A stretch of 39,570 bases of DNA, taken from contig NHHW01000008.1 of assembly GCA_002172185.1 (NCBI GenBank), positions 1 to 39,570 of the forward strand. Reading direction: 5' to 3'. Below, in pieces: positions 22,341 through 39,570 of this stretch (the first letter of the stretch is position 1; every line of letters starts with the position of its first letter). The DNA is from Euryarchaeota archaeon TMED173. GTDB taxonomy: Archaea > Thermoplasmatota > Poseidoniia > Poseidoniales > Thalassarchaeaceae. The notes under the pieces are model-generated. The model worked only from the letters and a program-made list of their open reading frames with translations. It did not search any database and was not told where the DNA came from. The position numbers and the translations under genes are program-made.

Positions 22341-22350
22341 TTTCTTAACC

Positions 22351-23010: not shown

Positions 23011-23022
23011 CTAATTACCCCC

Positions 23023-23619
23023 TCAATCGTCACCAATTATAATCGGATTCTTCGATTCTGACGCGCCGTCGTTAGGAAGTGCGCCTATCCTGATTATCTT
23101 CTGCCTGAGTTTGTCGAATCCGTCTATCAATGCTTCGGGACGGGGGGGGCAGCCAGGGATGTAAACGTCAACTGGGATGACTGTGTCTACTCCCTCAAGG
23201 ATGTTGTAAGACTGGAAGTATGGTCCTCCCGAGATTGCGCACTCGCCCATCGCTATGCACCACTTTGGCTCTGGCATCTGCTCCCAAAGTCTGACTATCG
23301 GGTCTGCGAACTTCTTGCTAATCGGACCATTAACCAAAAGGACATCGCACTGTCGCGGACTGGATCTGAAGAAGACTCCAAATCTTTCCGCATCGAATCT
23401 GCTTGCCCCTGCAGCTGCCATCTCCAAGGCGCAGCACTTGATTCCAAGGTGGAGAGGGAACAATGACTTTCTCTGGCTCCAGTTGAAAACTCGGCCGACG
23501 AGAACGCCTATGACGTCCTTGATCTTACTAGCCTTGAGTGCGTCATCGGTAATGTCGCCGACAGTATCCACTAGCATCCTGCTGTTGAATACAGAGTAGT
23601 TCTGGCCGTCTTCCTGCAA
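23023..23619 (-). CDS. nuoB: NADH-quinone oxidoreductase-type subunit B
   Basis: 198 residues. It carries cluster N2, the last 4Fe-4S centre before quinone; all four ligands are present: C62 and C63 (GIKCCALEM), C127 (AMGECAISGG) and C157 (YIPGCPPRPEAL). The family segment RFGVFFRSSPRQCDVLLVNG is clear. The start is a TTG at 23619 with GAGGG 6 bases upstream, 9 bases after the nuoA stop; no ATG is available before the conserved region except at codon 15. Canonical position between nuoA and nuoC. Confidence 0.96.
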   Translation of the reverse strand: MQEDGQNYSVFNSRMLVDTVGDITDDALKASKIKDVIGVLVGRVFNWSQRKSLFPLHLGIKCCALEMAAAGASRFDAERFGVFFRSSPRQCDVLLVNGPISKKFADPIVRLWEQMPEPKWCIAMGECAISGGPYFQSYNILEGVDTVIPVDVYIPGCPPRPEALIDGFDKLRQKIIRIGALPNDGASESKNPIIIGDD

Positions 23620-23628
23620 TGAAATCCC

Positions 23629-24180
23629 TCAGATGTATATTCTTCCTCTCTTTCTGAAGACGTGCCAGACTCCGAGACTCATTAGAATGATGAAGACCGT
23701 CATCGTAAGTAGTGCGTTGATAATTGCACCGTCAGCCAGATTGGTATCTCTACCCTTCTGAATAGCCATGACTCCACCAAAAGCTAGGAACATGAACGCT
23801 ATATCGAACACTAGGAATACAATCGCATACCAGTAGTACTGGAAGTGGAAGTTGATGTCAGCATCCCCCAATGGATCTGATCCACACTCGTATGTAGAGT
23901 CCCTCCTGACATATAGGCTGTGGTCCACCTCATATCCAGGAAGAAGTATCGATCTCGTCTTGTTGGGATCCGACCCCTTTGTGGTCGGCCTGAGGAACCT
24001 CGTGGCGAAGAAGCTGAATACCGGGAAGCCTATTCCAACTAGGGTCATTACGGCTACTGGAAGATACATCTCTGACACTGTACTGATGGAATCACCCCCG
24101 GTCCCGTAGGGACCGCTAGGTACCTCCACGAAAATTCCGGACATAAGCGTATCCGAACGGAGCCTTGCAACCCTAGTCAT
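23629..24180 (-). CDS. nuoA: NADH-quinone oxidoreductase-type subunit A
   Basis: 183 residues, longer than the usual 120-150 because of about 35 residues before helix 1. Three transmembrane helices with the loop pattern YECGSDPLGDADINFHFQYY. Helix 2 reads AIVFLVFDIAFMFLAFG where most homologues have FD-x-E-x-x-x-x-x-P-W: the Asp is kept but the conserved Glu is Ala and the YPW is replaced. The codons were checked. The ATG at 24180 follows GGAG and lies inside the last codons of the upstream CARDB-repeat gene (8-base overlap), so nuoA translation may be coupled to it; ATG 24141 is a weaker alternative. First gene of the nuo operon. Confidence 0.93.
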   Translation of the reverse strand: MTRVARLRSDTLMSGIFVEVPSGPYGTGGDSISTVSEMYLPVAVMTLVGIGFPVFSFFATRFLRPTTKGSDPNKTRSILLPGYEVDHSLYVRRDSTYECGSDPLGDADINFHFQYYWYAIVFLVFDIAFMFLAFGGVMAIQKGRDTNLADGAIINALLTMTVFIILMSLGVWHVFRKRGRIYI

Positions 24181-26854
24181 CAAGCTCCAGATACACGTCC
24201 TCAGACATAATCCGATTCTGAGTTCTGTTTCTCATGAAGAGGAGGAGGATTGAGAGAGCTCCTAGTATGATGATTCCTATGGCAATCATCTGCTGAGATT
24301 CGGTTGAAAGAGAGCCTGAAGCAAGTGTAGACTCCACTGATAGGTCCAGTGGCTCGCCCGCAACCGGGAGTCCCTTTGGCTGGACAATTACGGTAAAAGA
24401 GTACTCGTCGTCGGAGATCATGTCGCTCGGAGGGGTTACTCGGACGGTTACCTCTCTAGTATTCCCTGGCTGCAGCTTGAACTCATCCGATATTACGTCT
24501 ACTGACCAGCCTCTGAGAGAGTCACTGGTCAATACCTCGATTTCCTCCTCTATATTCCCGTTATTGGTTACGAAAATCTGGAACTCCGTATTTTCGGGAT
24601 ATGCTGTCTTCTTCGAAGTTTCGGATTCAATTGTAACGCCCAGATCGTGGATGGCTCGGATGTCTACGACTAGATCAAGGAAAGAGGCCGCTTGACCAGT
24701 ATTCTTCTTTGAAGTAACCCCGACCTTGATGATCCCGGAAGTACCACTGTCAACCTCTAGGACATCGAAGTCTATCTGTACGTTTATCTGTCCATTTGCC
24801 GGGATTGGTATCGCACTCCCATCTACTACCTGCCCGTCAACACTGATGATCCTGACTACTGACGAATCCATGCCTGAGACCGAGACGACTGCTTCGTCTG
24901 CACCTCCGTCTCCGGTGTTAGAGAGTATGAATGATAGAGATGAGGATCCTCCGGGAGGCAAGGCGACGATCATCTGAGATGGGTCTTCTTCAGGGCTCTC
25001 GAAGGCTACAGCGATACTGTAGTTGAAATTAGAAACGGTGACTGTGACCATCCTAGTGAGAATGGTGTCTGTTCCAATTATCCCTACCCTGCCCTCGAAA
25101 TCCTCTGAGTTGTTATTGATATTATCCGAAACAAGAACCTCCATGGATACTGTTGCAGTTTCCTCAGGTTGGATTATTAGCTGAGCAATCTCATTGCCCT
25201 CGGAGTCTTTGAACCTGGAATCCCACTTAGTCTCCTCGCAAGAGTCAGAGATGTCTGGATCGCAGGACGCAAGGGCGAAGCTATCCTGAATATTTCCTGT
25301 GTTCGTTATTGACAGTGGGAATGAGACCCATTGTCCGAACCTGCCCGTCTGGGAGTCTGAAGGAACGGATATTTTACCGCCATGGATAGGTGAAACGGTG
25401 ACCTTTAGAGTAATCTCGTCCAAGGTTGAGCCCTGGGAGTTGACGTAGAATATGATAGGATACTCCACTCCAGCTCTTGCATTCTCAGGTGCGGAAACCT
25501 GCATTTCGACACTCCTCCTGTCGCAGTTAGAGGAGGTGGTGCAATGCTTTCCATCTATGGTGATGTATGTCTCTGAGAACTCAACCTGCCAACCCGGGGA
25601 AAGTTGTCTATTGCCAATGGCAAAGTTATCCTGTCCATTCCCAGTATTTGTCACCATTAAGGAGGTGGTTGCTGAGGATCCGGGGTCGACATTGTTGAGG
25701 GTGGAGCTAGAAAGAGTGATTGCAGCATCGTGGACCTGTCCCAGATTAATTCTCAAGAGTGTTTGACAGCCAATACTGCTACCAGCTCTACCCTGGATGT
25801 ATACATCCACAGTTCCCGGCTCAACGGTGTCGTCGGGATTGATATCGAAATTGAAAGAGGCGGTATCACCCTGTTCGTTGGGCTTCTGGAGTAGTGCGTT
25901 ATTAGGAGAGAAGGAAAACCAGTCAGAAACATCTACTCCATCAGCCATAGCCATGACCTGTACCGTCCAACCGGTGTTTCCTGTGTTAGTGGTGGTGAAG
26001 GAATTTGATTCTGACTCACCCGGATCTAATGTGTGGGATGGCTTCTGAAGCTCAGAATCGCAAGTCTTCACTTCTGGGATTCTGAGGTCCAGCTCGATGC
26101 TGTCGTTGGCTTGGTCTATTGTGTTGGGGTCATTCGATACACTGGCCTCGAGAACGAAGCAGTGATCGCCAGACTCGGTGCTGCTACCGTCCTCGAGCGT
26201 CACCGATATTGTTGCTTCCTCAGAATCCTCGGAGTCCAGGTTCATTTGTTGTGGGTCGACAGTCGCGTCCAAGCCATTCGAGTCGCACTGGGAGGATGAT
26301 GCTATCGATAGTTGGACCGTGGCCTGGTTCTCTCCGGTGTTCTCAACGTCCACTGTCCACTCGACCTCGTCACCATCGCCATCGTAGGTGACTTGCCCAT
26401 TGTTTGGTACCTTGTAAGACAGTTTTACTGAGTACTGTCCCCCTCCCTCGGCAGTAGTTGTCACCGTGATATCGTCCTGCGCGTTATCGGACGGGTTTGT
26501 GCCGACTCCGTTGGCGTTGACAGTCGTCTCGCACTCACCGGAAGCCTGGTCGTTGATGCTTACAGTAAGAGTTACTGACTCGCTCTCCCCCTGTCCAACG
26601 TTAGCCACTGAGCTATCCAGATTGGAGGTGAATCCGTTGCAATCAGCTGCTTGGGAGGTGCTGAGAGTTACTGTGAGGTCCTCGTCTCCATCGTTTAGTA
26701 TCGTGATCGTGTATTCTGCAGGGTCGTCGGTAGTTGCAGACTTGGCCATGGAGTCGGAAGAGAGCGAGATTGAGGCTGCTGCAGAAACGGGCAGGGAGAC
26801 GAAGGAGGCCAGTAAAAGAGCAGTGAGCAAAACTGCTGTGTTGGTGGTTCTCAT
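24173..26854 (-). CDS. Secreted, membrane-anchored protein with seven CARDB/NEW3-like repeats
   Basis: 893 residues. Signal peptide at 1-26 (LLTALLLASFVSLPVSAAA), C-terminal transmembrane helix at about 855-873 and a 20-residue cytosolic tail (RNRTQNRIMSEDVYLELDD). The exterior is a chain of beta-sandwich domains of about 110-130 residues, each with an N-[DTN]-G-[DN] turn: ILNDGDED, VENTGENQ, TTNTGNTG, VTNTGNGQ, ITNTGNIQ, LSNTGDGG, VTNNGNIE. Such CARDB/NEW3-type domains serve in surface display and adhesion; no enzymatic domain is seen. Several Cys pairs near the N-terminal half may form disulfides. It follows the subtilase gene after 62 bases and overlaps nuoA by 8 bases, so it is probably in the same transcript as nuo. 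Confidence 0.9.
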   Translation of the reverse strand: MRTTNTAVLLTALLLASFVSLPVSAAASISLSSDSMAKSATTDDPAEYTITILNDGDEDLTVTLSTSQAADCNGFTSNLDSSVANVGQGESESVTLTVSINDQASGECETTVNANGVGTNPSDNAQDDITVTTTAEGGGQYSVKLSYKVPNNGQVTYDGDGDEVEWTVDVENTGENQATVQLSIASSSQCDSNGLDATVDPQQMNLDSEDSEEATISVTLEDGSSTESGDHCFVLEASVSNDPNTIDQANDSIELDLRIPEVKTCDSELQKPSHTLDPGESESNSFTTTNTGNTGWTVQVMAMADGVDVSDWFSFSPNNALLQKPNEQGDTASFNFDINPDDTVEPGTVDVYIQGRAGSSIGCQTLLRINLGQVHDAAITLSSSTLNNVDPGSSATTSLMVTNTGNGQDNFAIGNRQLSPGWQVEFSETYITIDGKHCTTSSNCDRRSVEMQVSAPENARAGVEYPIIFYVNSQGSTLDEITLKVTVSPIHGGKISVPSDSQTGRFGQWVSFPLSITNTGNIQDSFALASCDPDISDSCEETKWDSRFKDSEGNEIAQLIIQPEETATVSMEVLVSDNINNNSEDFEGRVGIIGTDTILTRMVTVTVSNFNYSIAVAFESPEEDPSQMIVALPPGGSSSLSFILSNTGDGGADEAVVSVSGMDSSVVRIISVDGQVVDGSAIPIPANGQINVQIDFDVLEVDSGTSGIIKVGVTSKKNTGQAASFLDLVVDIRAIHDLGVTIESETSKKTAYPENTEFQIFVTNNGNIEEEIEVLTSDSLRGWSVDVISDEFKLQPGNTREVTVRVTPPSDMISDDEYSFTVIVQPKGLPVAGEPLDLSVESTLASGSLSTESQQMIAIGIIILGALSILLLFMRNRTQNRIMSEDVYLELDD

Positions 26855-26905
26855 CGAATGACCGAGACAACCGCCCCTCTAAGGGCTTCGGGCTCCAAGT
26901 GCGTC

Positions 26906-26910
26906 AAAAA
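26906..26910 (-). terminator. Possible T-run terminator after the subtilase gene
   Basis: Seven bases after the subtilase stop, the minus strand has a run of five T. Archaeal termination can occur at T-runs without a hairpin. No inverted repeat is evident. The run is short, so partial readthrough into the CARDB gene is as likely as termination. Confidence 0.25.
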
Positions 26911-26916
26911 CCTTGG

Positions 26917-29900
26917 TTATTGGTGTGTTTGGCGCTCTTCGGAATCCTCTTCATTGTGAACGTTGGGATCTGCGACCCACTCCTCATTAACCGGGTCCCA
27001 GAGCCATCCGGGGTATTCTGAGAATTTCTGTAGCTGGGTACTCGCGCTTTCTAGTTGCGATTTTACTTCTGATTGGATTGATTGATTATATGTCGCCTGT
27101 GGGGTAACCATGGATCCCTTTGAGGGTTCTGAACGATCGCCTCGGAGAGATCCTAAGACGGTGCTAATATTCCTACCTGAACGGGAAAATGCCAATGCTG
27201 CAGTCACAGAACTCAGTAACAAAACTACCCCGCCAATAACGAAAATAAGTGTCCAGATTCCAGATCCACTGGATGTGGACTCGACCTCTATTTCTACTGA
27301 TTTGGAATGGCCGGAGATATATTCTGCGTCCCCCAGCATTACAGTTAACAGCCCATCTGATCCCGAGTTTGGAGTGAATTCCACCTGAACTGACCTAACC
27401 TCCCCTGGCTGTAGGGTCACCATGAATCCATCCAGAACCCTGATTATCCACCCATTCGGACCGTCCGTAACTATTCTGTTTGATATCGGCGTATTCCCAG
27501 AATTTGTTAGTTCGAAGTATAGGACTGAGGGTAGGTCCTCAAATGCCTCGTTATAGTTGGCCAGCGTCCATTCGACTTCCATGACTGTATCCACCAGAAG
27601 GGAGATCGGTGTCCTGATCTCCAGTCCGTCACCCTCCATCGTGAGCGTGACGGTTGGCTCCGATCCAGCAGGTTCGCTGATAGGTATGGTGATAGTACAC
27701 CAGACTTTGGAAAGGGCACCAGGGGATATCCTTGCGGGGTTTATGCTACAGTCAGTGAGCCAGTCTTGGCTCGGGACCTCCATAGTGACGCTTGGCTCCC
27801 ATATTGATGAGCCATCGTTCCCGACTTCCCAACCCATATCGAACGACCTCCCGACTGGGTGTGGCCCTAGTCCTAGAGGGGAGTCGGACGATTCGATGGA
27901 TTCGCCATCGAAGATTACTACCTCCGAGAAGGAAACGCTTGGTTTAGCCCCCGATACTGCATCTAAGGTTGCGTTCCAATCGAAGAAGGCGCCGCCCTCT
28001 ACGAGGAACCTTATTTCCACGGGGCCGCTGACTGCCAGTCCGTTTCCCTGAATGTTGAACGACCAAGTGACTGAGGATCCCATTGGAACTACTATCTTGT
28101 CCAGTCCCCCGATTATGGACCAGCCTCCGGGCAGGGATCTAGCAATTGGAGTGAGATTAAGCTCTCTGTTTCCTTGATTTGAGATTTGGATGTCTATCTT
28201 CTTTTGGGAGTCTGCGGCAACATCACCTAGACTATCTCCTGAGCTAGGGGAGAATTCTGCGGAGTCGATTGGCTTAATCTCGAGGGGTAGCGGGAACGTC
28301 CAGATTTCAGATCCGACCCTGGAGGTAAGGTGAATTGAGGCTTCGAAAATGGTCCCGGCTTGGAGCAATACCCCCGGAGGGGACACAGCAATCCCAACTG
28401 AGATAGATCCATCCTTCTCCAAGGTCCCAGAGGATCCCTGTCTGGACCCAAGGAATGGACCTAGTTCTAAAAGCCCTACATCCCATCCAGCTGGCGGAAA
28501 TATCTCGATATCGTATGTTTGGGCTCCATTACCCCTGTTAAAGAGATCCACCGAGGTATTCATGCTCTCGAATGAGTCGACCCAGATAGTCTCGGAAGGG
28601 AGGATCAGATCTGGTTGTCCAAGTACAGGGACGTCGAAGAAAATCTCCAACTGAGACTCGACGTCGAAATCCTCGTCAATGGCTGTTATTGTCATTGAGT
28701 AAGTACCAGGTTGAGGAGAAGGAGGGTGGACTAGTGTCAGGTTGACTGTGGTAGATTCTGCTGGTCCAAGCTCGACGTAGATTCTGTCAAAGCTCCTGAA
28801 CCAGTTCTGCTCTTCCCCATCGGCAATTCTAGTTGGATACGAAATCTGGATGCTCGCATTGGTGTCGAATAGCGCTAGGTTAGTCATCAAGACCGCCCAG
28901 CTAGCGGTCGTGCCCGTGGCATCCTCTAGCGTGACCCACTGCGTATCGGTGGATGGCTGTATTCCGGGAGCACTGACCTCGATTGTCTGTATCAGGAGAT
29001 TGTTATCCTCGTACAGCTCGTCGAATTGATCACTGGGATCTATCTCTATCCTGATCTCTGTGGGTCCTTTATCTGAGGTTTCTGGAGTCCAGTACCACTC
29101 TAACAGGATCTCCTGACCAGGAGTCATCGATATTGACTTTGTTTCCAATAGGTTGCTGTTGATGTGCGCACTGACGAACAGGTCCGATAATGACCCAGAG
29201 CCCTGATTAATGACCGATGCTGAGAAGCTTGTCTGCTCCCCGACTTGTGGTATTAGTGTAGAGATTGCGAATGATTCCGGTACAAAGCTTGGATCTGGTG
29301 TTAGGTCATTCACATTAACACCTCTGACTGCGATCGCGAAGGGTTGGTTGGACCTGCTACCACCATGTGAGTAGTCCTTGACTTTGACGTTCCATATCCC
29401 TGTCGATGCCGAGTCGATTAGGACGACCTCGACATTATTTTTACTGTCCGCTGCCCCTCCTGTCGTGGATCTCCCATTGGAGAAGTCGTTCCCGATGTAA
29501 GTTATGCTCCCGTCTGGAGAAGATACCTCCAGGTTGAGGTCGTTCCTAAGTTGGGTGTTAGAGAATGCCGATCCTGGATAGTCGGACCATGCTAGGACTA
29601 TCTTCAGAGGCTCGCCAGATCTGGTTACGTCGAAGTTGTATGAAGCCTCTTGTCCGCTCGAAAGTCGGGATCTATCATCCACGAAGATCCCCACATCTCC
29701 GACTTGGCTATCTGGGAGTAGCGAGTTCACCAGGTTAAGCCTGCCCCAGCCCTCATTGTTGTTTGGGATATCCCTTGTACCCATGTCTTCCGCCCCCAGA
29801 ATCAGCATTGCCTTCACCAGAGCCCCTTGGGGTTCGGGCCTCTCGGCTATCTCCATTAGATACTCCCTCACAATGGCTGATGCGCCTGCAGCCGCGGGGG

Positions 29901-31428
29901 TCGCCATTGAGGTACCACTGTACTCAACGTACCATTGATCGTTTAGGTTGTCTGGAGCCTCAGATGCCTCTTGCGCTTTACATGATCTGACGTAGTCTCC
30001 AGCTGCGACAATATCAGGCTTTATCCTACCGTCATCGGTAGGGCCACGACTGCTCCAGTAGTACATCTCATCAGCGGGGTTGCTGCTGTATCTATTCACG
30101 TGAGCACCCACGGTAATTACATTCTTGGCAGTCCCTGGTGGTGAGACTCCGTCGTCCCTCTCGTTTCCAGCCGCGAAGAGGACAGTCATACCATCGTATG
30201 TCCAGTACTGGTCCCAGGTGGAGGTCCTGTCATCGGCATCTTCGGACTGAGTCGAGTATTGGCCACCCGAGTTATAGCTACCCCAGCTGTTTGTATGTAT
30301 CCTTGCGCCGCCGCTACTGTATGCGGAGTTGAGGAGTGTGTACACACCGGGCCCGGAGAGAGCCCCAGAGTCATCATCCTCCATTGCCTGCATGTACAGC
30401 TCGGCCTCAGGAGCTATTCCCTGGTAGGTCCCGCTACTTCTGCTTCCAGACCCGAGGACTGTGCAGGCAACATGTGTACCATGGCCGTCGTTTGTGTCGG
30501 CTGTAGATTGGTCGTTAGCCACATCTACCCTACCAACAATCCTCGTCCCAAAGTCACCATGATCATGATCAATACCTGTATCTGCCACTGCTACCCTCTG
30601 ATCACTTCCATTGAGACCTGTGAAGAAGTAGTCCTCCACAGAGCCGAGTTCCATGTGGGATCCTGCAAGATTGTTCCAAGTGGTTAGCTCAGGTACTGGG
30701 GCCAGAAATGCGACTTCTGGCCTATGAGCTATCTCTGAGATCAGAGTATGGTCGACGGTTCCGAAATTAATCCCCTCCGATGGGGACCACAGATCTTCCA
30801 AGAATTCCTCTGCCGTGGACGATAGTGATCCCTGTAGGTCCATTCCGGGTGAATCGAGCCTTAGTAGCTCATCATCCTTCCAGCCTATCATCTCGATAAA
30901 TTGGTGATTTTCTCTCTCCCAGAGAAGATCATCAATAATCATAGCAATTGGAACGGAATGGCTGGATTGGATGAACGGCAGTTCTCTAGTCTTTTGGAGT
31001 TCATACATGGGGCCTTGGACAATGAATCCTGAAGGCGGAATTGTACTTCTTATGGCCACTTCGGATGCTTCAATAATCTGCATCCTAGCATCCCAAAGCC
31101 CTGTATTGGACTCTATCACGACTACTATGAGATCCTGTCTTGGTTCCAAGAGTTGTCGTGGTACGCTCTTGGACAGAAGAAGACCGTCATCTGAGAAGAT
31201 GCCGATTGAAGAGTCCGCTCTGGGATCCCTAGTCCCCTCCTCGCCTTCAGAGATCAGTGGACGTCCGAGATCTCTTATGCTGTTAGGATCGGGAGAAATC
31301 TCAATCCTATTTGTCTCAAGAGTTAGAGTTTCCTCGACATTTGCCGAATCGTTATCGGTATGATGCTGAAAGTTGAGTGTGGAAGAAAGCAGAATGATCA
31401 GAACTAGTGTAGAGATCTGTTTTCTCAT
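26917..31428 (-). CDS. Secreted subtilase (peptidase S8, KP-43-like) with CARDB-like repeats and membrane anchor
   Basis: 1503 residues from ATG 31428, which has GGGGGAG 6 bases upstream and leads straight into a signal peptide (MRKQISTLVLIILLSS); an ATG 42 bases earlier lacks a ribosome-binding site. Residues about 25-255 look like a long propeptide region. The catalytic triad is D283 (VAVADTGIDHDHGDF), H316 (NDGHGTHVA) and S507 (YSGTSMATPAAAGA), with oxyanion N422 (AAGNERDDG). Residues about 575-705 are the beta-sandwich that follows the catalytic domain in KP-43-type subtilases (KIVLAWSDYPGS, NDLNLEVSSPDG). Then come about five CARDB-like repeats with NxGN turns, a transmembrane helix (about 1391-1414) and an 84-residue cytosolic tail that ends with a YPGWLWDPVNEEWVADP motif. 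It would act on extracellular protein while tethered to the cell. Confidence 0.95.
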   Translation of the reverse strand: MRKQISTLVLIILLSSTLNFQHHTDNDSANVEETLTLETNRIEISPDPNSIRDLGRPLISEGEEGTRDPRADSSIGIFSDDGLLLSKSVPRQLLEPRQDLIVVVIESNTGLWDARMQIIEASEVAIRSTIPPSGFIVQGPMYELQKTRELPFIQSSHSVPIAMIIDDLLWERENHQFIEMIGWKDDELLRLDSPGMDLQGSLSSTAEEFLEDLWSPSEGINFGTVDHTLISEIAHRPEVAFLAPVPELTTWNNLAGSHMELGSVEDYFFTGLNGSDQRVAVADTGIDHDHGDFGTRIVGRVDVANDQSTADTNDGHGTHVACTVLGSGSRSSGTYQGIAPEAELYMQAMEDDDSGALSGPGVYTLLNSAYSSGGARIHTNSWGSYNSGGQYSTQSEDADDRTSTWDQYWTYDGMTVLFAAGNERDDGVSPPGTAKNVITVGAHVNRYSSNPADEMYYWSSRGPTDDGRIKPDIVAAGDYVRSCKAQEASEAPDNLNDQWYVEYSGTSMATPAAAGASAIVREYLMEIAERPEPQGALVKAMLILGAEDMGTRDIPNNNEGWGRLNLVNSLLPDSQVGDVGIFVDDRSRLSSGQEASYNFDVTRSGEPLKIVLAWSDYPGSAFSNTQLRNDLNLEVSSPDGSITYIGNDFSNGRSTTGGAADSKNNVEVVLIDSASTGIWNVKVKDYSHGGSRSNQPFAIAVRGVNVNDLTPDPSFVPESFAISTLIPQVGEQTSFSASVINQGSGSLSDLFVSAHINSNLLETKSISMTPGQEILLEWYWTPETSDKGPTEIRIEIDPSDQFDELYEDNNLLIQTIEVSAPGIQPSTDTQWVTLEDATGTTASWAVLMTNLALFDTNASIQISYPTRIADGEEQNWFRSFDRIYVELGPAESTTVNLTLVHPPSPQPGTYSMTITAIDEDFDVESQLEIFFDVPVLGQPDLILPSETIWVDSFESMNTSVDLFNRGNGAQTYDIEIFPPAGWDVGLLELGPFLGSRQGSSGTLEKDGSISVGIAVSPPGVLLQAGTIFEASIHLTSRVGSEIWTFPLPLEIKPIDSAEFSPSSGDSLGDVAADSQKKIDIQISNQGNRELNLTPIARSLPGGWSIIGGLDKIVVPMGSSVTWSFNIQGNGLAVSGPVEIRFLVEGGAFFDWNATLDAVSGAKPSVSFSEVVIFDGESIESSDSPLGLGPHPVGRSFDMGWEVGNDGSSIWEPSVTMEVPSQDWLTDCSINPARISPGALSKVWCTITIPISEPAGSEPTVTLTMEGDGLEIRTPISLLVDTVMEVEWTLANYNEAFEDLPSVLYFELTNSGNTPISNRIVTDGPNGWIIRVLDGFMVTLQPGEVRSVQVEFTPNSGSDGLLTVMLGDAEYISGHSKSVEIEVESTSSGSGIWTLIFVIGGVVLLLSSVTAALAFSRSGRNISTVLGSLRGDRSEPSKGSMVTPQATYNQSIQSEVKSQLESASTQLQKFSEYPGWLWDPVNEEWVADPNVHNEEDSEERQTHQ

Positions 31429-31495
31429 TACTATCTCCCCCTTACTGCTTGCTTTGATACTATGGGTCATTCATTTTTGAGATGATTAAATTGTG

Positions 31496-32059
31496 TCAGA
31501 ATACCTCGAATGTAGTCTGATCAACGAATGCCTCTCTAGTCCAATCTCCAACATCGTGGTTCCAAGTTCTAGGACCCTTCTGACCGTCGTAGTAAGTGTA
31601 CTCGATGGTTACCTCGATAGTGTACTGTTCCCAAACAGACTGACCCAAAACCACCATCTCGAGATCCTCACCAGGGGTATTGGAGATGGAGCTATGAGCT
31701 GACAGTTTCTCTAGATAAAAGTCTAGTCTATCTATCTCCAATCCCTCTGAGTCTAGGAACCTGATAGTCAGACTTACGTCTTCTATCGTCCTGCTACCTT
31801 TATTGTCCAGCTCTGCCAGAACAATGTGTCCAGAACCTGACTGCATGTATACTACTTCAACATCGACATTGTCATACGGTATCACCCAGATGAGGGTGAA
31901 CAAAGAAACGAGAGCTATCAGTAGCGCTGAGATAGATGCGAACACTACTCTCCGAGGAGTCACTACTTGGGACGCATCACCAAGCTTTTCTAGGATCACA
32001 TGGGCAGTATCAGAGTCTCGCTCTGTTACCTTTCCAAGAAGACCACCCGATCGTGACAC
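31496..32059 (-). CDS. Small single-pass membrane protein coupled to the 1467-residue exoprotein
   Basis: 187 residues, not recognised. Residues 1-37 are polar and probably cytosolic, 38-60 are a transmembrane helix (VVFASISALLIALVSLFTLIWVI region), and 61-187 are a beta-rich domain (AELDNKGSRTIEDVSLTIRF resembles a CARDB/late-embryogenesis-like strand pattern) that would lie outside. The start is a GTG at 32059 that shares one base with the TAG stop of the upstream gene; GGGGTGA lies 8 bases before it, so termination-reinitiation coupling is likely. The very tight link suggests that the two proteins work as a pair. The subtilase gene follows after 67 bases. Confidence 0.75.
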   Translation of the reverse strand: MSRSGGLLGKVTERDSDTAHVILEKLGDASQVVTPRRVVFASISALLIALVSLFTLIWVIPYDNVDVEVVYMQSGSGHIVLAELDNKGSRTIEDVSLTIRFLDSEGLEIDRLDFYLEKLSAHSSISNTPGEDLEMVVLGQSVWEQYTIEVTIEYTYYDGQKGPRTWNHDVGDWTREAFVDQTTFEVF

Positions 32060-35000
32060 TAGGAAATCACCCCCAATGTAGCTGCCACTGTCAGTATACC
32101 TGATGATACTGGCTCAGGTGCCATCCAATGACTAGTTGAGCCAGAGAAGCCTGGGATTTTATTCAGAAGTGATAGGTCGGATGCAAATCCATTTACTCCC
32201 AATGTAGTTCCTGACGGTATCCCTCCTGTTATCTGCGCGTCAAGCATCACACCACGGATATCCACGTCAATTCCATTGATCTGCGCAGTTGCTCTGGCTG
32301 AGATAATGATTCGTCCTCCTTGAACATCAGAGACTTCGACAATCGTATAACCGGGAAGAAGCACGTTGATTCTACCTATCTCATGGATGTGGATGTTGGC
32401 GCTCTTGAGCCCTACTCCCAGGGCTTCCATTTCTTCCAGAGTAACAGGAGGAAGTGTTGGGATATTTGATGATCGGAAATAAAGCCTCTCCACACCGTCG
32501 CCGCTGGATCTGATATTCAGACCATACGAGTCTGTGGGCTTAATCGATAGTCTATCAGCCAGTCCCTCGGCCATTAGGACAACGTCCCCCTTGCTGTTTA
32601 CAGCCCTTCCTTTGGCCTCGATATACAGTGACATCCCATCGGTCGATGCCGAGAAGTCCAGAATCGGCAGGCCCTGGAAAGCCAGGTTCTGAGTGATATC
32701 GAAGTTCAGATCGGGCTCGGTAGTTAGATTCATTGATCCGGGGATATCTGTAAGGAACATTGTAGCTGGCCACCATGCATAGCCCTCTGGCCCCTCCATC
32801 CACTGCATCTGCTGGATCATGATGGATCCGACACCAATCTGTCCATTCCTGAACTGGTCGGGTACAGTCACATCCATGGAGATGGCGTTTCCTAGGCTGG
32901 CCTGAATCTCCACTGACTCTGGTATATCCTGGACCATCATCTCTGTCCTACTTCCGGCCTGCCTGTCCAATAGTAGTGCATGGAACCAATCAAGTCTATT
33001 TGACATCGAGTAAAGCGTTGTTGTAGAAGTCTCGGTTATACCTCCGATCTCCTGTGTTCGGAATTCCGAGTCGATCAGAACGGAGGTTGCTTGTCCGATT
33101 TGTAGCCCTTCAATTGTAAAGAATACATCTTGCCCATTAACTCCCTTGGATGCAATGACGAACTCTGAATTGAGTGGTTCCCATCCTTCCATTCCAAGGG
33201 TTAAATCCCATGACTCTCCATTAGAGATCGAGCTTCTGGATACTGAAATATCGACCATTGGAGGGAGGTTAGGGATCCAAGTCTTGAGGTGGAATCCCTC
33301 AGTAATTCCAGATGGTGCGGAATTCATAACTATTCCGTGGACCCACTCGGGCTCTTCGACTGAGCTATTGCCCATTTGAGATTCGGCAATCAGATCGAAA
33401 CCAGAATCAGCCTCCAGACCCAATGAGAACGAAAAGTTTCCATCACCTGAAGAGGAACCCGTTGAAATATCAGAGGTTATTCCCGACATTATTCCGTTTA
33501 CAGACCTGCCTAAGTCAGAGAATCCATCGATGAAGTATGCCACACCAGAGACCCCGAGTGATGAGTTGAAATCGGGAATTTCCAAGGAGGTGCCATCCTG
33601 GGAGCCAGTCGGAATCTGTACTGATAAGCTCGAGGGGAGTGGATTAACCTCGGCCAGAACAGAAAAGGGGAGATGTTGGTTAGATGGGGCATTGTCTACA
33701 TTTATTCTAAGTGGATTACGTCCCTCAATTGTGGCAAATGCCGTTCCCATTCCCGCATTTCCTGATGCTCCTTCCTCCAGTGGAGGAATCCATCCCAGCT
33801 CGCTCACCCCAGTGACGGTAGTCGAAAGCGATGAGCTATTGTTTACTGGATCATGATGGAAAAGGAAGTGATCGCCATCCATAGATAGTGGAGATTCAGA
33901 ATCGCTAATTTGGGCCTCAATAAGTCCGATAGCCGAGTCCGAACTCCATGAAGTCATCGATCCCGAAGTGGTTGAGAATGATTGAGGGAATCCTGATATC
34001 CGCACAGCCTGTCGATGTGAGTCATCAAATCCTGTGTAGACTATGGATCCAATCTCTGAAGATGCTGAGTAGTCCACCCCACTGGGAGAAACAGTAATAC
34101 TGATCTCATCAGGTAGATCTGAGAACATTGCCGATTGGTAATCCATACCCTCCAGAGTACCTGGTTGATGACCTACGAAGGCGAGTAAAAGTTGCTCTTC
34201 TGAAATCGTACTCAAGGATAAATCCTGAGAGTCGGAGGAGTTTGAGCCCATAAGAGAAAACGACTGTAGTCCAGAGAAGTCAATACTTGCTGCAACAGGA
34301 ACCAACGGATCCATCAGACCTTGATTGGTTTGGATTTTTCCAAGGCCCCTATCCAATGATAGCAGTACGTGGTCTCCTGAATATACTGGATGGGTCGATG
34401 AGCCTATTTGCATTCTTAGGAGTGGTACTGGCATCTTAGAGCGAGAGGTAAGCCAATTATCTGTCATCAGGACATGTAGCTCTCTAGAATTGAGTTCTCC
34501 GGTCGAGCTGCTGCCGCTAATGAGATCAACTACAGTTGAAGGGATTTCATTGAGGATGTTTCCCACATCCAGGAAAACGTCGACCAGATTTAGAATTACC
34601 GAGTCCACTATCTTGGAGACGAAGTCTAGGTTTACACCGGAATCTAGCGTATCATTGGATTCTGGAGAGCCACCTAGTCCGAAGGACCCGAATACTGCTA
34701 CCGAAGTCGGGATTGAATCTGCGTAAACGTGAATCCGTCGGTGATCTTCAGAGTTTCCAGCTCTGGAGAACCAAGAGGTATAGTCTATGGCTTGGAGCGG
34801 TTGTACAGATCTGAGAATTACCAGACTCTCGGGAGGATCAGCGGGATTGATTGGTAGAGTTGGGTCGTTTACATTCTCACTTGAGTCTCTGGTGAAGTTC
34901 TTGATCCCAATAATCATCCCTAGCCTATCCGGAATTGATCCCGGCAGTTCGGGCTGATCGGCGGAGCCCATCATCCTGAAAATCCTCTGAATCTCATCCT

Positions 35001-36462
35001 GTGAAAGCGATCCCTCAGGCATCCCTCTCAGGAATCCCAGAGAATTGGTTGAGTTGCCGAAGTCCCCATCTGACTCGGACTCAGGTAGATTTGACCTGTC
35101 TTCGTGGAAGTGGAGATGTAGGTCGGATCTTCTGTCCGCCCAATATTCTAAAGAAGTGAGGCTTCTCTCTCCTTCTAGGCCTGTAGCAGTGGGAAGGACA
35201 CTATCTGTCCGAACCACCAGTTCGGCAAAAGAGGGCAGCAGTGTAGAGTCTCCATGAGGATGGAATCGGGCTTCAATGTAGGCCAGTTCCCACATTTCTC
35301 TGTCATTATCCCCATCTGGCGGTGAATAGTGGATGTAGCCAAAGCCGGCTGAGACTCCACAGGATATTTCCAGAGATGTTTTGTTGAAAAGTTCAGCTGG
35401 ATCGTAACCAAGACTACACTGATCCTGGCCCCCATTATCAAATCTTAGTGAGTATGGCGAAGAGATAGATGCGAAGGTTATGCCTGATTCATCAGGAGGA
35501 TCAATGATGCCGAATGGATCGGCGATTGCCGAAATTAGGGTACTGATGAAATCCTGTCCTGTTGATGCGAGGTCGAAATAAAGCCTTTCTATTCCGACCT
35601 CGAATTTGAAGTCGTTGGGAGGCATGGTGAATCTAGAGTCGATCACCCAGACATACGACTCTCCTCCGCCGAGATTCAGGAGTGTGCCCGAATCTGAGTA
35701 AGAGAATGCCTTGATCAATGAAACATGTAGAGACTCCATCTCGAGCCAATCCGGGTCCGAGGCGCTATTACCGACTTCTTTTACTGTGAACTCTACTCCT
35801 GGCTCTAACCATAGTGTGCCATCCTCAATACCCCAGCCACCGATAAATTGGAGATCTACTTTGAGCCCTACCTGAATATCGTCATCTCCATCTCCATCCA
35901 CATCCATGGAGTGAAGAAGAGCGTCAGTATTGGTATTCAGTATTGAGAACAGGGATGCGCTGAATGAAACCACCTCGAAGCTATCTATCATTTCTCCATT
36001 CTGATTCTCATACTGCGTCCAAATTACGTAGTCTGTAATATTGAAGAGAGTCTGCCAGATATTGTCAACCATTCCAGGGTTGGTTCCACCGTTAACCAGG
36101 AGATCGTATGGTGCAGGGTGTATGGTTTCAGGAGGAAAAGTGGTCACCATTGAGAGTCCTTCAATAGCAGGTCCAGCTACTGAAATTGGACTAGATTGAT
36201 CAGAGGAGATTAGTGAATCCTGGATAGATTGGATTTGATTTTCCGCTAGAGGTGAAACAGAGTTCGAAGTAACGAAGGAATCCCTCTCACTTAGCATCTC
36301 GCTTAGTTCTTCAAGAACTCCGAAGTCACTAGACTCTATTCTAGGCTCACCATGTACGTTCGTGAAAGGAAGGAGAATCGGCAAGGCAACGACTATTGCC
36401 AGAAATACTGAGATTTTTGAAGGGGCTTTCCGAACACCGGGGTCGCCTTGTTCTCGGGCCAT
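32059..36462 (-). CDS. Very large exported protein of unknown function with degenerate internal repeats
   Basis: 1467 residues; I do not recognise the family. An N-terminal signal sequence or anchor lies at 17-37 (ISVFLAIVVALPILLPF) after a basic start. Residues 186-196 (MDVDGDGDDDI) are a DxDxDG calcium-binding-type loop. The rest is Ser/Gly/Asp-rich and beta-rich. From about residue 580 a short motif [ILF]P-x-S/E-hydrophobic-x-hydrophobic recurs at about 583, 782, 824, 941, 1065, 1179 and 1239; several spacings are near 58 or twice 58. The C-terminus ends in a hydrophobic run of about 13 residues (GILTVAATLGVIS) cut off by the stop codon, too short for a membrane helix. The ATG at 36462 is preceded by GAGGTGAG, which is part of a hairpin (36473-36487). 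Probably an envelope protein acting with the small membrane protein downstream. Confidence 0.85.
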   Translation of the reverse strand: MAREQGDPGVRKAPSKISVFLAIVVALPILLPFTNVHGEPRIESSDFGVLEELSEMLSERDSFVTSNSVSPLAENQIQSIQDSLISSDQSSPISVAGPAIEGLSMVTTFPPETIHPAPYDLLVNGGTNPGMVDNIWQTLFNITDYVIWTQYENQNGEMIDSFEVVSFSASLFSILNTNTDALLHSMDVDGDGDDDIQVGLKVDLQFIGGWGIEDGTLWLEPGVEFTVKEVGNSASDPDWLEMESLHVSLIKAFSYSDSGTLLNLGGGESYVWVIDSRFTMPPNDFKFEVGIERLYFDLASTGQDFISTLISAIADPFGIIDPPDESGITFASISSPYSLRFDNGGQDQCSLGYDPAELFNKTSLEISCGVSAGFGYIHYSPPDGDNDREMWELAYIEARFHPHGDSTLLPSFAELVVRTDSVLPTATGLEGERSLTSLEYWADRRSDLHLHFHEDRSNLPESESDGDFGNSTNSLGFLRGMPEGSLSQDEIQRIFRMMGSADQPELPGSIPDRLGMIIGIKNFTRDSSENVNDPTLPINPADPPESLVILRSVQPLQAIDYTSWFSRAGNSEDHRRIHVYADSIPTSVAVFGSFGLGGSPESNDTLDSGVNLDFVSKIVDSVILNLVDVFLDVGNILNEIPSTVVDLISGSSSTGELNSRELHVLMTDNWLTSRSKMPVPLLRMQIGSSTHPVYSGDHVLLSLDRGLGKIQTNQGLMDPLVPVAASIDFSGLQSFSLMGSNSSDSQDLSLSTISEEQLLLAFVGHQPGTLEGMDYQSAMFSDLPDEISITVSPSGVDYSASSEIGSIVYTGFDDSHRQAVRISGFPQSFSTTSGSMTSWSSDSAIGLIEAQISDSESPLSMDGDHFLFHHDPVNNSSSLSTTVTGVSELGWIPPLEEGASGNAGMGTAFATIEGRNPLRINVDNAPSNQHLPFSVLAEVNPLPSSLSVQIPTGSQDGTSLEIPDFNSSLGVSGVAYFIDGFSDLGRSVNGIMSGITSDISTGSSSGDGNFSFSLGLEADSGFDLIAESQMGNSSVEEPEWVHGIVMNSAPSGITEGFHLKTWIPNLPPMVDISVSRSSISNGESWDLTLGMEGWEPLNSEFVIASKGVNGQDVFFTIEGLQIGQATSVLIDSEFRTQEIGGITETSTTTLYSMSNRLDWFHALLLDRQAGSRTEMMVQDIPESVEIQASLGNAISMDVTVPDQFRNGQIGVGSIMIQQMQWMEGPEGYAWWPATMFLTDIPGSMNLTTEPDLNFDITQNLAFQGLPILDFSASTDGMSLYIEAKGRAVNSKGDVVLMAEGLADRLSIKPTDSYGLNIRSSGDGVERLYFRSSNIPTLPPVTLEEMEALGVGLKSANIHIHEIGRINVLLPGYTIVEVSDVQGGRIIISARATAQINGIDVDIRGVMLDAQITGGIPSGTTLGVNGFASDLSLLNKIPGFSGSTSHWMAPEPVSSGILTVAATLGVIS

Positions 36463-36472
36463 AGTTGAAACT

Positions 36473-36487
36473 CACCTCATAGAGGTG
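36473..36487 (-). promoter_or_regulatory. Hairpin masking the Shine-Dalgarno sequence of the 1467-residue protein gene
   Basis: On the minus strand the leader reads CACCTC, loop TAT, GAGGTG: a perfect 6-bp inverted repeat with a 3-base loop. The right arm is the Shine-Dalgarno sequence (GAGGTGAG), about 10 bases before the ATG at 36462. If it forms, the stem would block 30S binding, so it could be a translational control element (temperature, protein or antisense responsive). Chance occurrence of a 6-bp stem is possible. Confidence 0.45.
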
Positions 36488-36520
36488 CGCTATAGGGTAT
36501 TGCCCTACAGGATACTGGGA

Positions 36521-36527
36521 ATATACA
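36521..36527 (-). promoter_or_regulatory. TATA-like box upstream of the 1467-residue protein gene
   Basis: On the minus strand TGTATAT lies about 59 bases before the ATG at 36462, in the 78-base gap after the PKD/zinc-ribbon gene. A start about 25 bases downstream would give a leader of about 30-35 bases that still contains the Shine-Dalgarno hairpin. Supported only by sequence and spacing. Confidence 0.4.
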
Positions 36528-36540
36528 ATTATGGAGTATT

Positions 36541-38748
36541 CTACTTATGGCTGATTCTTTGTTCATAATCGCAATAGGGACAGTTAGTATAGGCCTCATC
36601 TACTCCTTCAGGAAGTGAAATCTGGAATTCCCTTGAGCAACTCTCGCAAGACTTCCTAACTGTTCTATGGTCGATGTAATCATCACGCTTTGGCGAATCT
36701 TGCAGATCCCCCAACAGATTCTGCTCGAATTCATCCTTTTCAGGCTCTGGTTGTGGCTTCTCTACTCCCAGCATATCGAACAGATTGGGATCGGCAGACG
36801 GTTGCGGTTCATCCTGAAATGACTGTTGGAAGGGAGAATAACCCGAATCAGCTCCCCACATCTGCTTCTGCATCTCCGAGGTAGGGGGGGGTGTGGGTGC
36901 TACTGACTCTACTTCCTCTTCAGTAACATCAAACTCCGACATCTTCCTACTCACAGCATAGCTGTAGGCCATGAATGAAACGATTGAGAGTATTGTGATC
37001 AGGAGTACAATAATTCCTCCTATTGCGATAATTCCTAAGCCGCTTTCGTCTTCTTCCTCTGAAACTATCACCAGTATCTCGAGATATGAAGTCAGACCAG
37101 CATCGTTTTCCACGATGAGTACAACATTCTTGGTGCCTTCCGATTGGAATTCGTAGAAAACCTGGGGCTCACTATCAAGTAACTGAATCTCGTTCTCTGA
37201 CCCCTGATCGATTATCCATGTGTATTCTAGATCTGCAGATTCGTTATCCTGGGCGAAATTTTGCAGGAATATCGTTTCACCAACTATTGCCTCAATGATT
37301 GAGGTGTCCGGAATATCGATCTCCGGAGCTGTGACATCAATGAAGTTCACTAAAACGTCCTTCTGCGATGATTGGTCGGACTTATCTGTAACAACTAAAG
37401 ATACTATGTGCTGACCAGCTGAGAGCTCATTAGTGATCTCCAAGGTTAGGGTGGAGTTAGTCTCAGACACCTCGTAGTTTGAGTCAATAATCTCTCCATC
37501 AAGCATCCAATCTAGTCTACTTACCCCCCAATTATCAGAGAATGACGCCCTGACCTCGAGGGTATCTCCGAATCCCTTGGTGATTTCATTGGAGGTTTCC
37601 ATTGAAATCTCAGGAGCTGAGAGGTCTGAGACTGTGATAGTTCTGCTCGAGTCTTCGCCTCTAGAATCAGTTGAGATCCCATATAGGGTTACTGGGAAGC
37701 TTCCGGGTTCGTTCCAAACGTACTCAATGGTCTGTTCTGATCCATCGGGATTCCCATCTCCGTCCATATCCCAAGTGAACGAGTTCTCCGAGAATTGCCC
37801 AGATCTGTTAGGCGTCTCTAAGGCTGAAAAGGTTACTAGTTCCCCTACGTCTACGGAATCTAGATTTGTCACGCTAGATATTCTTGGATCTAGTATTGGA
37901 GTTAGTGTGACGGTAACTGTGACTGCTGCATCTTGGGTTCCTGCTCCCCCATTACCAGGTCCAAGTCTATTATCTACGATGATGTATAGAGGATCTTCGT
38001 ATTCATCATTAACCATCCATGGAAAGTATCTCTCATCATTCACGAAAAGCATATCTGCAGAAGCTATCCTCAGAGAAGAAGACCAGTTCGAACTTGGAGA
38101 ATAGTAAGAAAATGCGGTCTCGGTCATAACGAAAATATCAGGATTCCCTGCCATTGTTCTCGCATAGATATTTACGAACGTACCTTCGTCTACGTAGAAG
38201 GGGCCGTGGACTATTGAGTAGTCATCTGGATCCACTCTGTGTATTGAGTCTGATAGGGTGAACTGGTCCGTGATAATCTCTCCAGCATTAAGAGATATAT
38301 CTGAGTCAAACCCTCCTTGGGATCCTTGCCCGGAATCCTGGGGGTGGGCCAGATTATCGATTACAAGATACCATCGTGTTTTGGCCCTATCAGTTGGGAC
38401 CTCCCAGTGCCACTCTCCCGAGCCGCTGAAAGCTTCGAAGACTGATTCACTAATCCAAACTGAGTCGGATCTGTAAGAGCTCTCGCTCTGGTAAACTTCT
38501 ATATTTGAAGCTGGAAAGAGAAGGATGTCGATTTGGTTATCAGAAGAAATTTCGAAGAACATCGTACTTCCGGGTTCTCTTTCTCCCAAATCTACCCTCA
38601 GACAAGATTGGTCAGAAATGCTCCAGTCCCCAGGAAGTGAGTCTATAGAAGCGTTAGAGCATGTAATAATGCCCTTAGTAGTAATTGCCCCCACCTGAGT
38701 AGTCGATGCCAGGATGATCGTGATTACGAGAATAGGGGCCAATCGCAT
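36541..38748 (-). CDS. Membrane-anchored PKD-domain protein with cytosolic zinc ribbon
   Basis: 735 residues from ATG 38748, chosen because a signal peptide (MRLAPILVITIILASTT) starts there; a TTG 39 bases upstream is less likely. Outside: two related domains of about 110 residues (about 30-135 and 165-270), each ending in a [LI]-[VI]-[IV]-D-N-x3-P-x3-G-x-G motif, resembling PPC domains; then a PKD domain (about 295-375, FTWDMDGDGNPDGSEQTIEY) and two more beta-sandwich domains (380-475, 476-565). A transmembrane helix lies at about 571-595. The cytosolic tail of about 140 residues is Pro/Glu/Gln-rich and ends in a zinc ribbon, CESC-x18-CPYC. No enzyme domain is seen; the layout suggests a surface receptor or an anchor with a cytosolic partner. 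First gene of the envelope cassette. Confidence 0.88.
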   Translation of the reverse strand: MRLAPILVITIILASTTQVGAITTKGIITCSNASIDSLPGDWSISDQSCLRVDLGEREPGSTMFFEISSDNQIDILLFPASNIEVYQSESSYRSDSVWISESVFEAFSGSGEWHWEVPTDRAKTRWYLVIDNLAHPQDSGQGSQGGFDSDISLNAGEIITDQFTLSDSIHRVDPDDYSIVHGPFYVDEGTFVNIYARTMAGNPDIFVMTETAFSYYSPSSNWSSSLRIASADMLFVNDERYFPWMVNDEYEDPLYIIVDNRLGPGNGGAGTQDAAVTVTVTLTPILDPRISSVTNLDSVDVGELVTFSALETPNRSGQFSENSFTWDMDGDGNPDGSEQTIEYVWNEPGSFPVTLYGISTDSRGEDSSRTITVSDLSAPEISMETSNEITKGFGDTLEVRASFSDNWGVSRLDWMLDGEIIDSNYEVSETNSTLTLEITNELSAGQHIVSLVVTDKSDQSSQKDVLVNFIDVTAPEIDIPDTSIIEAIVGETIFLQNFAQDNESADLEYTWIIDQGSENEIQLLDSEPQVFYEFQSEGTKNVVLIVENDAGLTSYLEILVIVSEEEDESGLGIIAIGGIIVLLITILSIVSFMAYSYAVSRKMSEFDVTEEEVESVAPTPPPTSEMQKQMWGADSGYSPFQQSFQDEPQPSADPNLFDMLGVEKPQPEPEKDEFEQNLLGDLQDSPKRDDYIDHRTVRKSCESCSREFQISLPEGVDEAYTNCPYCDYEQRISHK

Positions 38749-38784: not shown

Positions 38785-38792
38785 CAATAAAG
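38785..38792 (-). promoter_or_regulatory. TATA-like box of the PKD/zinc-ribbon protein gene
   Basis: On the minus strand CTTTATTG, preceded by CCGAA that could serve as a BRE, lies about 37-44 bases before the ATG at 38748. Transcription would start near 38760, leaving a very short leader. It lies in the 58-base gap after the PRC-barrel gene and may separate the envelope cassette from the ribosomal-protein transcript. Confidence 0.4.
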
Positions 38793-38806: not shown

Positions 38807-39088
38807 CTAAGGGTTTCTCGGAACTGGAGTCTGTGGAAACCATCTCAGAAGAATAACATCACCCACCGATCTTACCCAATTCCAAGGTACTGCAACATGA
38901 GTCCTCCCCTCCACAAGAGATTCTGGCGGGTCTGAAACAAAGATGTGAGTACATGACCAATTGTTGACATCTATTACAGAGTCGTGTACCGTTCCTAGTA
39001 GCCTACCATCGGGTATGATAACAGGTAGTCCCCGTATCTCAGATGCTTGGCGATCCGCCATGTATAGCCGCCACTCCCCATGTGGCAT
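38807..39088 (-). CDS. PRC-barrel domain protein
   Basis: 93 residues from the ATG at 39088; an internal ATG at 39061 (MADRQASEIRGLPV) would give an 84-residue protein that starts like typical archaeal PRC-barrel proteins, and the choice is uncertain because neither has a clear ribosome-binding site. The domain pattern is visible: SEIRGLPVIIPDGRLLGTVH, a central DVNNWSCTHIFVSDP strand and a HVAVPWNWVRSVGDVILL closing strand. PRC barrels occur as RimM C-terminal domains in ribosome maturation and as stand-alone archaeal proteins of uncertain role. It follows the L15e gene by about 20 bases and is probably co-transcribed with it, which suggests an RNA or ribosome connection. Confidence 0.8.
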   Translation of the reverse strand: MPHGEWRLYMADRQASEIRGLPVIIPDGRLLGTVHDSVIDVNNWSCTHIFVSDPPESLVEGRTHVAVPWNWVRSVGDVILLRWFPQTPVPRNP

Positions 39089-39108
39089 CAATATGACGGA
39101 GAGAACGA

Positions 39109-39570
39109 TTACTTTCCTCTATTCTTGTTCGCCTTTAGACTTGGTCGGAGCTTCTCAGCCCCCTTGCCCTTATTGAGGAGTCCACGGCCCTTCTTTCCTG
39201 CTCCTGTCTTCCCTCTGAATGCCCTTCCACGATGGCTGGTTCCTGAAGCAACCCACCCGAGATCCTTATCTGACTTGATTGCGGGATGTGAGGGGTCAAT
39301 CATAATGACCTCGTAGAATTTATTCTTTCCATCCTCCCCTACCCAGTATGAGTTCAGTACCTCCATGTTGGGATAACGCCTTGCGGTTCTCTCTTCTGCA
39401 ATCCTTTGAATTGATTTTGCCATTGTGATCTTCTTTATTCCAGCCTTAGATGGTTTCCTCTTCATGTGAATCTTACCCTTCCTAAGACCACCGCGTCTAA
39501 CTCTAGTTCGAATCACAACAATGCCTTGCTTAGCCTTGTATCCTACTCTTCGAGCAGCATCCAGTCTGGT
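39109..39570 (-). CDS. rpl15e: 50S ribosomal protein L15e, 5'-truncated by the window edge
   Basis: The frame is open from the stop at 39109-39111 to base 39570, so 153 C-terminal residues are visible and roughly 40 N-terminal residues are missing. The visible start [20 protein letters not shown] is the conserved L15e region, not a start codon region; an internal ATT at 39516 is not a true start. Further landmarks: [57 protein letters not shown] and [20 protein letters not shown]15e is found in archaea and eukaryotes but not bacteria, and binds 23S rRNA in the large subunit. Confidence 0.96.

Follow-up and report, generated by a model that had tools for sequence, protein, structure and literature searches.

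Five consecutive genes for surface proteins, designated here P5, P4, P3, P2, and P1 in the order of transcription, stand in the same sequence throughout the archaeal order Ca. Poseidoniales (Marine Group II), to a degree beyond chance, and their products probably make up a hitherto undescribed portion of the cell envelope. Among them, P4 and P3 are the older core of the cassette, a closely coupled pair found across Thermoplasmatota, and P2, P1, and P5 are neighbors of this pair specific to Poseidoniales; the finding gains when attention is restricted to P4-P3 and the comparison is extended to the whole phylum. The explanation that we prefer, tentatively and with somewhat less than even confidence, is a constitutive cell-envelope operon in which a P4-P3 scaffold is combined with a membrane-anchored subtilase (P2) and stalk proteins (P5 and P1), in a manner resembling the probably unrelated tetrabrachion-STABLE complex.

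Layout of the gene block

The analyzed stretch of 39,570 nucleotides (the window) corresponds to a single contig (C8) from a genome that is 45% complete and that is assigned, on the basis of gene content and its close relatives, to the family Thalassarchaeaceae of Ca. Poseidoniales. All window features described below lie on the minus strand, where the order is rpl15e, a gene encoding a PRC-barrel protein, P5, P4, P3, P2, P1, and then nuoA to nuoN. The ribosomal protein L15e gene (39109..39516; Pfam, 6e-52), which runs past the end of the window, and the PRC-barrel gene (38807..39091; Pfam PRC, 1e-7), found in order in all locus sets, form the conserved upstream flank, and the complex I genes nuoA-nuoD (21204..24183; Pfam and locus comparison) the conserved downstream flank. 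In the order of transcription, the five open reading frames (ORFs) encode 748, 1467, 187, 1517, and 893 amino acids. Spacing is short at most junctions of the block, with gaps of 19, 78, -1, 25, 62, and -11 nt from the PRC-barrel gene through nuoA. Only 17 nt separate the PRC-barrel gene from rpl15e, and 19 nt from P5; cotranscription of the surface genes with rpl15e, which encodes a ribosomal protein, is therefore possible. No RNA families or tRNAs were found in the window.

An earlier note, made from the letters of this DNA, had described five consecutive genes for exported or membrane proteins with beta-sandwich exteriors. The five consecutive minus-strand ORFs are where it placed them, and each of the five proteins has a signal peptide or a membrane helix. 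The description of the exteriors holds for P1, P2, and P5, which carry Ig-like domains recognized by Pfam; for P3, a CARDB match exceeding the cut-off was limited to a distant homolog, and P4 is predicted to be all-beta but shows no recognized sandwich. The three C-terminal membrane helices followed by distinct tails are also present, namely a Cys4 zinc ribbon in P5, a WLWDP motif in P2, and a short acidic tail in P1.

Conservation of the block in Poseidoniales

The arrangement rpl15e-PRC-P5-P4-P3-P2-P1-nuoABCD was collinear in 20/20 loci, each from a different genome and together representing both families; L15e and PRC preceded the block and nuoA followed it wherever the stretch extended far enough. 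Collinearity was seen again in 80/80 further loci, all of them Thalassarchaeaceae-like and some from the same genomes as the first 20. Strand and order of the five genes held in 100/100 locus extractions, a number that includes some contigs counted twice. These comparisons across related genomes contradict the possibility, allowed for in the earlier note, that gene order is not conserved beyond this strain. According to profile searches, on which all genome-wide counts given here are based, P4 is present in 114 of the 116 genomes of the order, including all 30 near-complete ones, and nearly always as a single copy. Order and close spacing are kept across the two families at only ~25-40% identity of the five proteins, and the loci inspected showed P4, P3, and P2 uninterrupted by genes of other types.

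General genome synteny was considered as a cause of the fixed order and rejected on the basis of a control in which ~60 kb around the block was compared. Upstream of rpl15e, only 3, 10, and 1 of 18 genes recurred in the compared stretch of three Poseidoniaceae genomes, and of the genes farthest downstream, beyond nuo, five had a counterpart in another Thalassarchaeaceae genus, but none of these was seen in Poseidoniaceae. The block itself was complete in every stretch compared; since synteny falls away outside it, general synteny is insufficient to account for the fixed order. The earlier reading of the five genes as a unit is thus upheld in that they form one conserved block. In the papers searched, which cover the literature in part, no description of the five-gene unit was found.

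In most genera of both families, a gene encoding a protein of ~330-405 amino acids with a metallo-beta-lactamase fold (Pfam) lies between PRC and P5 (examples: L017:843-1910, L024:18393-19568, and L033:767-1906); it is absent from this spot in the genus of the window and several others. Two contigs labeled Gammaproteobacteria (MED698; L080 and L092) bear P4 and its neighbors at 44-45% identity and look like wrongly binned archaeal contigs.

The giant protein P4

P4 (32059..36462) is a giant protein of 1467 amino acids with a signal peptide, predicted to form a long all-beta meander. No Pfam match was obtained for the window protein, 20 orthologs, or four distant homologs, and a sequence-profile search gave no match in the PDB. 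AlphaFold2 was run on 51-sequence alignments in two overlapping halves, and the resulting models are of moderate confidence (residues 30-700: pLDDT 70.9, pTM 0.70; residues 540-1467: pLDDT 76.8, pTM 0.65). Together they show a succession of ~70 short strands, along with two long helices and, at the C-terminus, a short one; the first long helix, predicted to be amphipathic, spans residues 614-649 (34516..34623) and the second residues 971-1000 (33463..33552). Foldseek searches against the PDB and viral models yielded no credible fold match, and weak similarities to PCNA, beta-barrel proteins, DDB1, and ApoB were dismissed as the background expected of any beta-sheet protein (TM ~0.1). Internal repeats are limited to one convincing pair, residues 651-780 versus 781-910 (probability 84%).

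An acidic DxDxDGDxD-x-V-G motif (35863..35904), conserved in most of 20 sequences, is a candidate calcium site. Invariant columns throughout the phylum are confined to Pro, Trp, Gly, and Gln; residues that could act as acid, base, or nucleophile are absent from them, which would suit a structural rather than a catalytic role. At the C-terminus, the 20 orthologs and the distant homologs have a P-x-P motif and, after it, a brief hydrophobic segment that lacks a basic tail (32062..32130). This arrangement resembles PEP-CTERM/archaeosortase sorting signals, in which a similar motif precedes a hydrophobic stretch, but P4 lacks the basic cluster, its hydrophobic part comprises only ~12-16 residues, and the motif is degenerate in the phylum. 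Since the tripartite signal (motif, membrane helix, and basic cluster) is thus incomplete, P4 was rejected as a candidate archaeosortase substrate. S-layer-like models did not match P4 either, and P1 reached 35.8 bits against NF033506, for which the cut-off is 110.

We also considered whether P4 might be a beta-sheet protein binding lipids or other hydrophobic ligands, similarly to LptD or ApoB, with P3 as its membrane partner. The ~70 short strands, the long amphipathic helices, and the presence of LptD and ApoB100 among the weak Foldseek neighbors would be in keeping with such a function, as would the significant in/out alternation in hydropathy of the strand residues (2.33 versus 1.50 +/- 0.13 in shuffled sequences). 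However, alternation is expected of any sheet with one buried face, the Foldseek matches in question have TM-scores near 0.1 and probabilities of at most 0.2, no PDB match reached E <= 0.001, and a single-membrane archaeon offers no obvious bridge for such a protein to span. We therefore regard lipid binding as quite improbable.

P3 and the older P4-P3 pair

P3 (31496..32059) is a small membrane protein whose gene overlaps the stop codon of P4. It is predicted to have a single N-terminal membrane helix (31889-31945) and a small beta exterior of CARDB/FxLYD-like character. The gap between P4 and P3 is at most 9 nt in 95/95 Poseidoniales loci, with a median of -4 nt, and this overlap suggests translational coupling.

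The pair extends well beyond the order. The P4 profile matched 87 of 243 genomes, and the relatives include archaea of MGIII, which is the second group within the class, as well as 18 other Thermoplasmatota genomes in nine family groups; most of the remaining Thermoplasmatota genomes gave no P4 match in the profile search. P3 follows P4 directly in 16 of the 17 distant Thermoplasmatota loci, and in genome G153 it is located elsewhere. The P3 profile is strong in 84 of the 87 P4-bearing genomes, and matches of comparable strength occur in only three of the 156 genomes without P4 (G163, G166, and G185). The 17 distant loci have a different neighborhood, in which both the rpl15e-nuo context and the cassette are absent, and the subtilases and PKD proteins of the distant genomes belong to multi-copy families encoded mostly away from P4-P3.

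The linkage of P2, P5, and P1 to P4-P3 only in Poseidoniales counts against a cell-envelope operon of all five genes. It is rather unlikely, in our estimation, that P4-P3 is the only functional unit and that P5, P2, and P1 are unrelated surface genes kept in place by a long transcript shared with rpl15e and nuo, although several observations fit this explanation: P4-P3 is the sole linkage surviving outside the order, outgroup homologs of the S8 and PKD proteins lie mostly elsewhere, and rpl15e and nuo on either side keep their positions just as well, so that shared transcription alone could hold the block together. Against it stand the preservation of order and spacing over two families at the low identity given above, which the outside neighbors do not share, the surface character of all five proteins, and the finding that P4, P3, and P2 are not split by a gene of another type.

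The membrane-anchored subtilase P2

P2 (26917..31470) combines a subtilase domain (Peptidase_S8, 8e-45) with CARDB and NEW3 domains and a predicted C-terminal membrane helix (residues 1408-1426; 27193-27249), beyond which lies the putatively cytosolic WLWDP motif (26962..27018). Its Peptidase S8 score is 153.8 bits, above the cut-off of 21.8, and the catalytic residues D297, H333, and S521 are identical in 16/16 aligned sequences; judged by these residues, P2 is a member of peptidase family S8 with an intact active site. Compared with typical members of the family, it adds ~900 residues of Ig-like domains, the C-terminal membrane helix, and an exchangeable tail predicted to be cytosolic. In genome G142 (contig C14:26886-27425), the genome behind locus L128, a weak match to the P2 profile lies inside an open frame of 25,796 codons, which is extremely long for a prokaryotic gene and could be real or an assembly artifact.

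A protease at this site raises the question of whether the five genes encode a feeding apparatus, in which surface proteins would capture dissolved protein, P2 would cleave it, and the tails would report on peptides or pass them to transporters. Marine Group II lives on protein, and P2 appears to be an intact exported subtilase; moreover, all metagenome-assembled genomes (MAGs) of one Marine Group II study encode 1-4 extracellular S8 subtilisins (PMC6864105), and a subtilase is among the highly transcribed Marine Group II proteases (PMC9723583). Nevertheless, we consider this function unlikely. The block contains no peptide transporter or peptide-binding domain, it is universal, single-copy, and located beside housekeeping genes, unlike the clade-variable degradative peptidases (PMC6336850), and in other members of the phylum the P4-P3 core mostly lacks a neighboring subtilase.

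The stalk proteins P5 and P1

P5 (36541..38787) is predicted to be an exported protein with a signal peptide, PKD (PKD_4, 5e-14) and Big_7 domains, a membrane helix (residues 585-603; 36979-37035), and a cytosolic tail; judged from its sequence, the N-terminal part probably consists of two all-beta repeats. The longest ORF begins with TTG at 38787, but the ATG at 38748, where the earlier note had placed the end of the cassette, corresponds to a methionine (M14) invariant in the family alignment and is the likely start. The tail contains a zinc ribbon of the form C-x2-C...C-x2-C (36571..36648), with C714, C717, C736, and C739 invariant in 16 aligned sequences, and a profile search found the ribbon in P5 of 6/6 genomes tested.

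P1 (24173..26854) is a putative surface protein with NEW3/HYDIN-like repeats (Pfam), a membrane helix at residues 856-874 (24233-24289), and the short acidic tail (24176-24208). With 86.9 bits against a cut-off of 70, it is classed by score as a member of NCBIfam NF041740 (choice-of-anchor T), and a set of five P1 sequences from both families gave 86.9, 85.4, 80.4, 89.1, and 77.2 bits; the part of P1 covered by this model is only ~200 residues long, and no function is attached to the model. The acidic character of the P1 tail, reported earlier for the window, is confirmed there but does not extend to many relatives, in which the tail is short and often basic.

Exchangeable cytosolic tails

The tail of P2 varies with genus. 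In the tail census, a C4HC3 zinc finger was present in 60 loci, WLWDP in 21, and a third, short tail in five, and no P2 had two of them. The WLWDP tail described in the earlier note is therefore correct for the window but limited to a few genera, and in most others the C4HC3 zinc finger takes its place. This finger has eight ligands and resembles RING/PHD fingers, with Prok-RING_1 as the best Pfam match (3.5e-4). However, no ubiquitin-type gene occurs in the P5-P1 block, and the scores of the fingers from relatives (20.9 and 18.5 bits) lie below the gathering cut-off of 29.1, so the P2 tail was not assigned to Prok-RING_1.

Tails of these kinds, zinc ribbons included, are also present on other surface proteins. 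The P2-type zinc finger gives a strong match about once per genome, on P2, and 59 of 60 genomes tested contain WLWDP, one to four times each, on large surface proteins. One such protein, of 1436 amino acids and carrying the PGWLWDP tail of P2, is encoded in the genome of the window (C1, L141:15628-19938), and a protein of about this size with the PGWLWDP motif was seen in nearly all Poseidoniales genomes tested. Another tail motif, LPxxGLPEGWTMEQWxxYG, observed at L142:4308-9089 and in the genomes of five relatives, ends one to eleven giant surface proteins per Poseidoniales genome, among them a second subtilase of the window's own genome; this tail, with its core GLPEGWTMEQW, belongs to no Pfam family.

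The earlier note had also proposed that the set captures, cleaves, and senses proteins, with a receptor-like zinc-ribbon protein as one of its parts. That part of its reading of the unit finds no support as it stands: the tails are swapped between lineages and are carried as well by unrelated surface proteins elsewhere in the genome. With one of three tails on P2 and never two, no single tail defines a receptor, and a zinc-ribbon receptor was rejected as the defining feature of the set. Since such tails are widespread on Poseidoniales surface proteins, tail choice is a general theme rather than a receptor special to this cassette. The exchange of a zinc finger, WLWDP, and a third type on one orthologous protease suggests an unstudied adaptor system at the inner face of the membrane.

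Proposed role and significance

The nearest working analog of the five-gene block appears to be tetrabrachion-STABLE of Staphylothermus marinus, a beta-rich surface scaffold with a bound subtilisin-family protease and a 70-nm coiled-coil stalk, for which precursor cleavage and peptide supply for feeding have been proposed as roles (PMC5744192). P4 is predicted to be all-beta and exported and might form such a scaffold, and P2 is its putative subtilase partner, linked here through gene position. In contrast to tetrabrachion, the P4 models contain no long coiled coil (no helix in either half exceeds ~36 residues), and in contrast to STABLE, P2 has a membrane helix and cytosolic tail of its own, as predicted; as P4 lacks the long coiled coil, the comparison may be drawn as one of analogy only.

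In the cell-envelope operon that we prefer, P4 would serve as a scaffold with a structural or binding function. Its attachment to the membrane would depend on the short hydrophobic C-terminus, the insertion of which is predicted from sequence only, and on P3, whose helix would cross the membrane and whose Ig-like domain would contact P4. The P2 subtilase and the stalk proteins P1 and P5 would join this scaffold in Poseidoniales. P2 may cleave proteins that are held at the surface layer or form it, in the course of maturation, turnover, or use as food, and the exchangeable tails of P2 and P5 would dock partners in the cytosol. A bolder version, which we put forward as doubtful, is that P4 and P3 form a hitherto undescribed surface complex, tethered to the membrane and possessing a large beta fold of a new type, which was already present in the ancestor of much of Thermoplasmatota and is a main structural component of the Marine Group II and III envelope; in Poseidoniales it would have been extended by a membrane-anchored protease with interchangeable cytosolic adaptor tails.

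One study reports 199 families associated with Poseidoniales, two of which are new families of peptidases (PMC9258230). In the papers searched, which cover the literature in part, no description of the Marine Group II envelope was found. No archaea are more abundant in the surface ocean than Marine Group II, and to our knowledge the group has no cultured member. A universal, usually single-copy surface block with a giant orphan protein is hence a target for studying how the cell surface of Marine Group II is made up and how these archaea encounter dissolved protein, and the P4-P3 pair carries the envelope question to other Thermoplasmatota.
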